Assembly: GCF_023093535.1 (NCBI RefSeq)
Contig: NZ_CP095757.1
Location: forward strand, 1 to 64,000
Source of the DNA: Halovivax limisalsi
GTDB taxonomy: Archaea > Halobacteriota > Halobacteria > Halobacteriales > Natrialbaceae
DNA length: 64,000 nucleotides
Direction of reading: 5' to 3'
Of the stretch, positions 12,230-22,801 are shown piece by piece. How positions within the stretch are numbered: position 1 is the stretch's first letter; the number at the start of each line of letters is the position of its first letter. The notes below the pieces were generated by a model. It was not told the origin of the DNA. It saw nothing but the letters and a program-made list of their open reading frames with translations, and did no database searches. The translations under genes and the position numbers were made by a program.

Positions 12230-12667
12230 CTATTCCCAGGCCCAGCCCTCCTCGGGACCAGACGTCTCGTTAGTGGACTTCCACGCCCATCCTTCCTCCG
12301 GAGCTGACTCCGCGTCGTCCGTGCTCCACGCCCACCCTTCCTCCGGAGCTGACTCCGCGTCGTCCGTACTCCAGGCCCATCCTTCCTCCGGAGCTGACTC
12401 CGCGTCGTCCGTACTCCAGGCCCATCCTTCCTCCGGAGCTGACTCCGCGTCGTCCGTACTCCACGCCCACCCTTCCTCCGGAGCTGACTCCGCGTCGTCC
12501 GTGCTCCACGCCCACCCCTCCTCCGGGTCGGGCTGACCCGGCGCTTCGTCCGACCCGCCGTCGTCAGCAGTTGTACTCGCACTCGCCCCGGCGAGGGTGA
12601 GGGCTGCCAGTCCGATCGATCGGAGGACGGTCCGACGGTCGCGGTTCGTCGTAGGCGTTGGTGCCAT
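12230..12667 (-). CDS. Tat-exported peptide with seven GWAW repeats
   Basis: A 145-residue protein. The N terminus RDRRTVLRSIGLAALTLAGA is a twin-arginine signal sequence. After an acidic spacer the whole mature chain is seven copies of PEEGWAW: five are in 15-residue units (PEEGWAWSTDDAESA), the sixth continues KSTNETSG and the seventh ends WAWE at the C terminus. The mature chain has 14 Trp and very many Asp/Glu and no Cys. I recognise no family. It could be a cell-surface adhesive or metal/ligand-binding repeat, or a precursor peptide; no modifying enzyme or dedicated transporter gene lies next to it. The ATG has its complement at 12665-12667, with an AT-rich promoter region upstream. Confidence 0.75.
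   Translation of the reverse strand: MAPTPTTNRDRRTVLRSIGLAALTLAGASASTTADDGGSDEAPGQPDPEEGWAWSTDDAESAPEEGWAWSTDDAESAPEEGWAWSTDDAESAPEEGWAWSTDDAESAPEEGWAWSTDDAESAPEEGWAWKSTNETSGPEEGWAWE
12292..12516. repeat. five tandem 45-bp units inside the GWAW gene
   Basis: Five direct repeats of 45 bp begin at 12292, 12337, 12382, 12427 and 12472. They differ from one another only at a few positions (for example ACGCCCAC against AGGCCCAT), so the array is recent or homogenised. The period equals 15 codons, keeping the frame. Confidence 0.95.
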
Positions 12668-12689
12668 ACGTGGACGACATTTTCCCCAC

Positions 12690-12770
12690 ATTTAGTAATT
12701 GTGCTAATATATATTAAAATACATAATATTCGTATCTATTTCTGCTCCGTGATTAATCCTGGGTTAATAC
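12690..12770 (-). promoter_or_regulatory. AT-rich promoter region of the GWAW gene
   Basis: About 80 bp with far higher A+T than its surroundings, including ATATATATTAG and several TTAAT-type runs on the minus strand, directly before the Tat peptide start. It may also carry signals for the thiolase gene that starts in the other direction. Confidence 0.45.
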
Positions 12771-20438: not shown

Positions 20439-21173
20439 GTGCGAGAATCGATCGTCCAGTTGGTCTTCTTCGTCGCCGTCGCCGCCGTGACGACGGTGTT
20501 CGTCGGCTCCATCGTCACCAACGCCGCCATCTTCGGCGGCGCCGTCGAGAACGCGGGCGAGCGCGACGCGACCGCGATCGACACCGAGATTGCGATCGTC
20601 AACGACCCGGCCGTCGACGCGTACGAACCGGCCGACGGCGGTGGAAACGGCGTCCTCACCCTCTACGTGAAGAACGTCGGTGGGTCGACGCTGGAACCGG
20701 CAGCCCTCGAGCCGCTCGTCGACGGCGCCTACGTCACCAACGTCACGACGACGGTCCGCGACGCCGATCGCTGGTACGCCGGCACCGTCCTCGAAGTCGC
20801 GATCGAGACGACGCTCGATCCGGGGGACCACCGCGTACTGGTCGACGTCAACGGACAGCGCGATCGACTCACCTTCGAACACCGGATCGCCTACTGGGGC
20901 GAGCCCGACAACGCGACGCTGCAGGACGGCGTCTGGGTCGCCGACAACGACACCGTCGACCTGCCGATCCTGACCGACCCCGACCAGCCGGACGAGACCA
21001 TCGACCTGACCGTCAACGACACCGCGACCGCGACGGTCGATCCCGATCCGGTCACGACGGGCTCGGACGGGACCGCGGAGACGACGCTCTCGTTCTCCCA
21101 GACGGGGACGGTGACCGTCACGCTCGATTCCGGCTGGGACACCGACGAGATCGTCGTCCGGTGGGACGGCTGA
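20439..21173 (+). CDS. membrane-anchored archaellum-like (FlaG/FlaF-like) protein
   Basis: A 244-residue protein starting with GTG. Residues 6-28 form a single hydrophobic helix (VQLVFFVAVAAVTTVFVGSIV) resembling the N-terminal helix of FlaF/FlaG and other type IV filament-related proteins. The remainder is beta-rich with Thr/Val/Asp repeats (VLTLYVKNVGGSTLEP is like the extracellular Ig-like domain of FlaG-type proteins; later DTATATVDPDPVTTGSDGTAETT). The C-terminal 70 residues look like a second Ig-like domain. No archaellum genes are adjacent. The family link is suggestive only. Confidence 0.65.
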   Translation: MRESIVQLVFFVAVAAVTTVFVGSIVTNAAIFGGAVENAGERDATAIDTEIAIVNDPAVDAYEPADGGGNGVLTLYVKNVGGSTLEPAALEPLVDGAYVTNVTTTVRDADRWYAGTVLEVAIETTLDPGDHRVLVDVNGQRDRLTFEHRIAYWGEPDNATLQDGVWVADNDTVDLPILTDPDQPDETIDLTVNDTATATVDPDPVTTGSDGTAETTLSFSQTGTVTVTLDSGWDTDEIVVRWDG

Positions 21174-21357: not shown

Positions 21358-22173
21358 CTAGGACGACGCCGCGTCCGTGCCGACATCGGCGCCGCGATCG
21401 CCCATCGCCGGCAGGTTGGGATCGCGGTGCGGTGCGCGCCCGAGCGCCGCGCCGTGGAGGTCCTGCTCGTCGAGCTGTGTCTGGAGGACGCGATCGAGCC
21501 GGTTGAGACTCGTCGTGTCGAGGCCGTGGGCCTCCAGCAGGTCAGCAAACCGGGGATCCTCGGCCACGGACTCGAATCGGTCGTAGAGGGATTCGAGTTC
21601 CTCGGGTGAGCGCTCGCGGACCCACTCGCGGTCCTCGAGACCGAGACGGTGCCGGCGCTCGTGGTCGACGACGTAGCGGATGACGACCAGCGACACCTTC
21701 GGGACGGCCCGCTGACTGCCGAAGGCCGTCAGGTCGAGTTCGGTGACGATCCCGAGGACGCGGTCGCGCTCCCAGCGCGAGAGCGAGCAGGCGTTGGCAA
21801 GCGCGTGGGCGATGCGGGCCTTCTCCAGGCGGTGCATCCGGGCGCTGTGACCCGCCATCGCGGGGTGGCGCTCGTCGTGCAGCCGGCGGACGGTCTCGTC
21901 GACGTCGCCGCCGGGCTCGTCCGGGCGGCCGATGAGGGTCGCGCTCGGCGTGGTGACGTCCCACCGCCGGGTTCGTTCGTCCTTGACGGCGTCCAGCCGG
22001 GAGAGCGATCCGTCGCCCGGGCCGGTGCTCACCGGTCGGTCGTCGGCCGGGTCCATCCGGCGGCGAGGGCCCGCGGGCGGCGGGGAGTGATGGTCGACGA
22101 CGCCGTGTCGTCGGTCGTCGGAATAGCCGGCACCGTCGTCTGACGGACCGGACGGTGGCTGTCCGTCGGTCAT
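21358..22173 (-). CDS. DNA-directed RNA polymerase epsilon-like subunit (haloarchaeal)
   Basis: A 271-residue protein. The first 75 residues are a Pro/Gly/Asp-rich, probably disordered arm. The conserved core (RRWDVTTPSATLIGRPDEPGGDVDETVRRLHDE ... WERDRVLGIVTELDLTAFGSQRAVPKVSLVVIRYVVD) matches what I recall of the epsilon subunit described for haloarchaeal RNA polymerase. Its exact role in the enzyme is not established. The upstream 0.6 kb carries four promoter-like repeats pointing at this gene, which suggests strong or layered regulation. The ATG has its complement at 22171-22173. Confidence 0.7.
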   Translation of the reverse strand: MTDGQPPSGPSDDGAGYSDDRRHGVVDHHSPPPAGPRRRMDPADDRPVSTGPGDGSLSRLDAVKDERTRRWDVTTPSATLIGRPDEPGGDVDETVRRLHDERHPAMAGHSARMHRLEKARIAHALANACSLSRWERDRVLGIVTELDLTAFGSQRAVPKVSLVVIRYVVDHERRHRLGLEDREWVRERSPEELESLYDRFESVAEDPRFADLLEAHGLDTTSLNRLDRVLQTQLDEQDLHGAALGRAPHRDPNLPAMGDRGADVGTDAASS

Positions 22174-22240
22174 CGCCTCCTCGTACGGAACGGGGAGGCA
22201 AAAGGGTCGGGGTTCACCCAACGACGGTGAACCCGCTTCG

Positions 22241-22277
22241 CTCACTACGAACCGTTGTCGCCAGAGCCACTTAAAGG
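22241..22277 (-). promoter_or_regulatory. proximal promoter-like repeat copy 1
   Basis: CTTTAAGTGG with the conserved downstream segment. Initiation about 25 nt after the box would fall near 22245-22250, giving a leader of about 75 nt before the ATG at 22173. Confidence 0.5.
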
Positions 22278-22381
22278 CGGATCGGGTACCAGCAGCGACG
22301 CGACGGTCATCGACAAATCGGCACGTATCCTTGCACAGTGTGACAGCGCAACCGCTCGCCGGTCGGCATCCCGGAAGAAGC

Positions 22382-22418
22382 CTCACTACGAACCGTTGTC
22401 GCCAGAAGCACTTAAAGG
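22382..22418 (-). promoter_or_regulatory. promoter-like repeat copy 2
   Basis: CTTTAAGTGCTTCTGGCGAC and the rest of the shared element, 141 bp upstream of copy 1. Confidence 0.45.
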
Positions 22419-22526
22419 AAGAATGGATATCAGTACCGATCCGAAGACTGGCCACAGGCGGAGCGGTGATCCGTCTCCCAACAGTGACGGCGCGGATGCT
22501 CGCCGAACAGTGTTCCCGGAAGAAGG

Positions 22527-22563
22527 CTCACTATGAACCGTTGTCGCCAGAAGTACTTAAAGA
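22527..22563 (-). promoter_or_regulatory. promoter-like repeat copy 3
   Basis: CTTTAAGTACTTCTGGCGAC and the rest of the shared element, 145 bp upstream of copy 2; one base differs in the distal part (GGTTCATAG). Confidence 0.45.
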
Positions 22564-22765
22564 AACGCCGGTACAGCGGATGGGGAGCCTGGGGGAGGAG
22601 CGCTGCCAGGCCGGGGTCCCGGCAGAACGTGGCGATAGTCAAGCGAGGCTGTTGCATCGAGTGGCGATGAACCGCAGAAGAAACTCGCACCGTTTCGCAT
22701 CGATGAAACCGACTGGACGACGGAGACGCGGGGCTCGCTCGAAAACGGGTCGCCGGAGAATCCCT

Positions 22766-22801
22766 CTACTACGAACCGTTGTGACGAGAACCACTTAAAG
22801 G
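22766..22801 (-). promoter_or_regulatory. promoter-like repeat copy 4, most diverged
   Basis: CTTTAAGTGGTTCTCGTCAC followed by AACGGTTCGTAGT; it lies about 60 bp after the hemL stop codon and 238 bp upstream of copy 3. Confidence 0.45.

Follow-up and report, generated by a model that had tools for sequence, protein, structure and literature searches.

Tandem promoter-like repeats ahead of the RNA polymerase epsilon gene of Halovivax limisalsi belong to a sequence class that co-occurs with epsilon in haloarchaea

Background

Some bacterial sigma factors are autoregulated alternative initiation factors. In haloarchaea, promoters carry a BRE with the sequence CGAAA upstream of the TATA box (PMC4983044). 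The RNA polymerase subunit epsilon of Hbt. salinarum (rpoeps, OE_1279R) has been reported to copurify with the polymerase, and native templates were transcribed efficiently by the epsilon-containing polymerase, in contrast to polymerase that lacked epsilon; the biological relevance of the subunit has been called enigmatic (PMC8305020).

The window analysed here is a stretch of 64,000 nucleotides of Halovivax limisalsi (contig NZ_CP095757.1, positions 1 to 64,000), for which a preliminary description had pointed out a series of promoter-like repeats upstream of an epsilon-like gene. What that description missed is the main point: the element is a class that recurs in many genomes and is tied to the presence of epsilon.

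Results

The four repeats ahead of epsilon

The element occurs in four copies of 33-36 bp each between positions 22244 and 22800 of the window, all on the minus strand and all oriented toward the epsilon gene (Table 1), and a pattern that fits all four had no match in 100 dinucleotide shuffles. The four tandem repeats described before are thereby borne out, and so is their direction: NCBI names the orthologs of the downstream gene 'DNA-directed RNA polymerase subunit epsilon', and its product shares 56-61% identity with four plasmid proteins annotated as epsilon. The start-to-start distances between the copies are 141, 145 and 238 bp, and the units of copies 1 to 3 are still alike (63-nt match, 81% and 60%), in line with the 141/145 bp spacing and the residual spacer similarity noted earlier; the proposal that a whole promoter unit was duplicated stands for these three copies. 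The entire 3.89-Mb genome holds no fifth copy. The leader of the putative copy 1 transcript folds with z = -3.57 and was equally stable in 0 of 200 shuffles. In its predicted gene-proximal hairpin (22175-22199) a CCUCC pairs with the GGAGG that precedes the epsilon ATG, so that ribosome access is perhaps controlled.

Table 1. Positions in the window of the putative promoters, the leader and the epsilon gene
Feature	Position	Strand	Inferred start	Remarks
Putative promoter copy 1 (gene-proximal)	22244-22276	-	~22245	TATA box TTTAAGT at 22269-22275
Putative promoter copy 2	22385-22417	-	~22386	
Putative promoter copy 3	22530-22562	-	~22531	
Putative promoter copy 4 (furthest upstream)	22768-22800	-	~22769	
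Leader of putative copy 1 transcript	22175-22234	-		Hairpins predicted at 22210-22234 and at 22175-22199
RNA polymerase subunit epsilon gene	21358-22173	-		271 aa; ATG at 22173; open reading frame, annotated orthologs, predicted fold

Elsewhere in the window, a gene for an ArlG-like archaellum stator protein was recognised (20439-21173; NCBIfam 111.6 bits, cut-off 110), which adjoins the gene of a DUF389 membrane protein and has no recognised archaellum cluster nearby, as well as a gene for a small protein (12233-12691) in which tandem repeats of APEEGWAWSTDDAES follow a Tat-like signal.

Anatomy and conservation of the element

A logo was built from 138 dissimilar sites. The element spans about 39 bp and consists of an almost invariant TATA box, TTTAAGT, followed just downstream by YTCTSG (approximately -21 to -16), by ACAASG (approximately -13 to -8) and by a start-region motif around +1. 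The 23-bp core holds 38.7 bits at the epsilon sites and likewise 38.7 bits at the other sites, and a second conserved block lies 26-37 bp along the element (approximately -4 to +8). The 20 columns upstream of the TATA box hold just 3.6-3.8 bits and are pyrimidine-rich; a BRE (CGAAA) is absent from them. As a rule the class has no hairpin at the transcript start (mean z about -0.1, the same as in the flanks). Some lineages have a strong hairpin right after the probable start (L142, 3054-3580 and 16400-16620; L131, L132, L144 and L159), which precedes TTTTCG or TTCTCG within ~45 nt of that start and resembles a terminator or attenuator.

At 41 of 44 epsilon loci, one to four copies of the core TTTAAGTNNYTCTSGNSACAASG were found within 800 bp and in the correct orientation, often in tandem and mostly spaced 85-240 bp apart. 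The element thus precedes almost every epsilon ortholog examined, in many genera and several haloarchaeal families; that box, spacing and orientation are conserved throughout the class lends support to the view that the repeats are promoter-like. Copy number differs among relatives: the nearest congener has two copies versus the four found here, with boxes that are almost identical and spacers that can barely be aligned. The element represents a long putative promoter class that is apparently undescribed; no description of it was found in the papers open to searching, most subscription papers lying outside that search.

Co-occurrence of element and epsilon

A full epsilon gene (profile A2) is present in 160 of 391 genomes of the class Halobacteria, and 20 further genomes have a weak, distant epsilon match only. 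Sites recovered with a 39-column model (R2, cut-off E <= 0.001) occur in 160 of the 391 genomes, and 159 of these are epsilon genomes. The element is therefore found in 159 of the 160 genomes with epsilon versus 1 of the 231 without, a count that is to be read with the training of R2 on sites from epsilon genomes in mind and that partly covers sites adjoining epsilon itself. G368, the genome with sites but no epsilon, bears them at a contig end (L070), where epsilon ought to start; G204, the reverse case, has epsilon and no R2 site. When the filters were relaxed, the best site among 34 genomes that lack a full epsilon, three congeners of H. limisalsi among them, reached E = 0.016, and none passed E <= 0.001. 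The presence of the element with epsilon and its absence without it suggest that epsilon itself is a start-site factor that reads these putative promoters. Several genomes of one family (f6; G230, G266, G272 and G339) hold multiple epsilon genes, with 2-4 matches each.

Two epsilon clades, marked by the motif RxWG or RxWD, are matched by two types of start region, at distal sites too: all 33 typed genomes with RxWG have GATAC/GCTAC, and 12 of the 14 with RxWD have TAGT. The link amounts to few independent changes, and G151 departs from it, but the Natrialbaceae hold both kinds, and there the sites follow epsilon rather than the family.

Distant epsilon-like proteins (~30% identity) are encoded mostly on small plasmids, where they are labelled hypothetical. 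A variant site, TTTAAGT...ACAAC...ATGAAGGGA, lies upstream of five of six such genes, and the contig of the sixth begins shortly before the gene; for the shorter epsilon-like proteins, weak matches in other genomes, no such site was found. The smallest plasmid with both variant gene and variant site measures 14.5 kb and has 14 annotated genes. On plasmid pSTJ003 of Halobacterium hubeiense (L154, 2367-4864) the distant epsilon-like gene lies ~1 kb from a gene for a TATA-binding protein, with the variant putative promoter between the two. No epsilon was found in phages.

Sites away from epsilon

Among 150 sites listed for 23 genomes that were chosen mostly for their high site number, 75 are separated from epsilon by over 6 kb or by a contig boundary, and such distant sites are present in 21 of the 23. 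One plasmid of Halorussus vallis carries epsilon together with seven sites, and tandem arrays occur at several loci. In the fetched loci, whose gene calls are script-made and uncurated, 1 of 211 sites falls inside a gene call. For 43 non-epsilon sites the next gene is co-directional, for 47 it faces the site, and for 22 there is none within 800 bp; roughly one non-epsilon site in two leads into no gene, and those that face gene ends would yield antisense or non-coding RNA. Recurrent or clear co-directional targets are a GNAT-thiE-thiM run, a FrnE/DsbA-like gene beside epsilon, a PRPP-synthetase-like gene and a TetR gene (all names except TetR are our own reading of the sequences). Rfam matched no RNA family in the window or the distal loci, a tRNA scan of the distal loci gave three tRNAs only, which do not account for the sites, and the sequence 3' of the distal sites showed, among the matches listed, further tandem copies and orthologs of the same loci, with no common new gene or RNA. 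In three genera (L110, L120 and L149), sites lie 100-200 bp before a GTP-cyclohydrolase-like gene and are directed away from it.

Predicted fold of epsilon

Pfam and NCBIfam provided neither a name for epsilon nor any domain within it. Two AlphaFold models (AF2) of different orthologs, made from shallow, 3-sequence input, reach a pLDDT of ~85 over one domain, and the confidently folded part covers ~135 residues, about one cyclin repeat. The best solved match of both models is the first cyclin repeat of TFIIB: yeast TFIIB matched with Z 9.1 (131 residues, 4.6 A), archaeal TFB with Z 9.2, the best TFIIB match of the second model had Z 10.8 (2.2 A over 97 residues), and Brf2 and cyclins scored just behind, values to be read with the caveat that Z 8-11 can reflect an arrangement common among helical proteins. 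The models contain no second cyclin repeat, and epsilon has no N-terminal zinc ribbon and no C-x2-C pairs. PF00382 (the TFIIB family of Pfam) had no match in 33 epsilon orthologs, and a sequence search of the PDB gave nothing significant. Homology to TFB found no support in profile-profile comparison (hhalign; not significant, probability 0.5%). Judging from the models, epsilon perhaps works in a TFB-like manner, but it is not filed as a TFB.

Discussion

We favour, with a probability of about 0.6, the reading that the repeats act in tandem as promoters of a class on which the polymerase works with epsilon, and that epsilon, as a specificity factor resembling TFB, promotes its own synthesis. 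Each repeat would be an extended core promoter (TTTAAGT, YTCTSG, ACAASG and the start-region motif, with no BRE) and the four in series would drive the epsilon gene; the polymerase that carries epsilon would serve the class, the subunit, with its one predicted TFIIB-like cyclin repeat, would read the DNA 3' of the TATA box, and the copies elsewhere would constitute a small regulon. If epsilon reads the element downstream of TATA, its own gene would be under positive self-control. We infer the start of transcription at the element, epsilon as its reader and the positive sign of the control. The efficient transcription of native templates in the presence of epsilon (PMC8305020) fits an epsilon-dependent class. 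More tentatively, and at less than even odds, epsilon might be a single-repeat, TFB-like specificity factor that recognises, in place of a BRE, the part of the core promoter that follows TATA together with the start region, switches on its own gene through the multiplied copies, and moves along with the promoters it reads, plasmids included, as a self-contained transcription module that makes antisense or non-coding RNA as well.

The main rival to epsilon-dependent self-activation is a co-inherited third regulator, i.e. another DNA-binding protein, or a dedicated TFB or TBP paralog, that controls the regulon and has epsilon merely as its most conserved target. We regard this as unlikely. YTCTSG-ACAASG could be an operator that overlaps the start region, a TBP gene stands near the distant epsilon-like gene on pSTJ003, and the likeness of epsilon to TFB in fold is unsupported by sequence. 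Such a regulator would, however, need to have been gained and lost in step with epsilon over several families, the gene neighbours of epsilon vary among lineages, the number of TFIIB-domain matches is similar in H. limisalsi and in congeners without epsilon, and variant epsilon-like genes bring the variant site even to the smallest of the plasmids mentioned above.

It is improbable to a further degree that the repeats are ordinary strong TBP/TFB promoters that were multiplied for output, with epsilon not involved in their recognition. The preliminary description had likened their design to that of rRNA promoters, and this holds for the tandem layout, which is common to rRNA operons, but not for the sequence. 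The rRNA promoters of H. limisalsi itself have a CTTATATA or CTTAAGT box, the latter resembling TTTAAGT, and a TGCGAACG / TGCAAACG start motif; the TGCGAACG-type motif, present there, is absent from the four epsilon copies, and the differing downstream and start sequences within the same genome rule out a likeness in sequence. The element also has no BRE, whereas haloarchaeal promoters show CGAAA (PMC4983044), its conserved stretch 3' of TATA is long, and the class is absent from genomes without epsilon. The least probable explanation, a repetitive and possibly mobile element that arrived with epsilon and multiplied in intergenic DNA, so that not every copy is a functional promoter, would suit the many copies that face gene ends or sit in gene-poor DNA, the several tandem arrays and the plasmids that carry epsilon and sites, but the conserved part is only ~39-50 bp with no defined ends noticed, and while the spacers are not conserved, its place ahead of epsilon is constant from family to family.

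The role of epsilon would become open to direct test, as the subunit is now joined by a defined DNA element, a list of genomes that have or lack it, targets away from its own gene and a predicted fold like that of TFIIB. If epsilon-dependent self-activation is correct, archaea own a polymerase-bound promoter-specificity factor alongside their TFB and TBP paralogs.

Comparison with known systems

By the NCBI annotation of close orthologs, the gene studied here belongs to the same family as haloarchaeal epsilon (OE_1279R), for which a promoter class, a TFB-like fold and self-control were not found described in the papers searched. With the haloarchaeal core promoter the element shares a TATA-like box and, judging from the second conserved block at 26-33 bp, a putative start region ~27 bp further on, and it differs in lacking the BRE CGAAA. 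With the promoters of haloarchaeal rRNA operons it shares a serial layout before one transcription unit and a TATA-like box, whereas the downstream and start sequences are unlike. The predicted fold of epsilon corresponds to the first cyclin repeat of TFB, TFIIB, Brf1 and Brf2, and the first model has, ahead of the repeat, a stretch of low confidence that aligns with the TFIIB residues preceding the first repeat there; in contrast to TFB and TFIIB, epsilon has no zinc ribbon, one repeat and no significant sequence or profile match, and the element linked to it is conserved downstream of TATA, where the BRE lies upstream. As in autoregulated bacterial sigma factors, the gene of the factor would stand under promoters that the factor itself reads, together with a small regulon, but the epsilon system is archaeal, would employ a TFB-like protein and has putative promoters that contain a TATA box.
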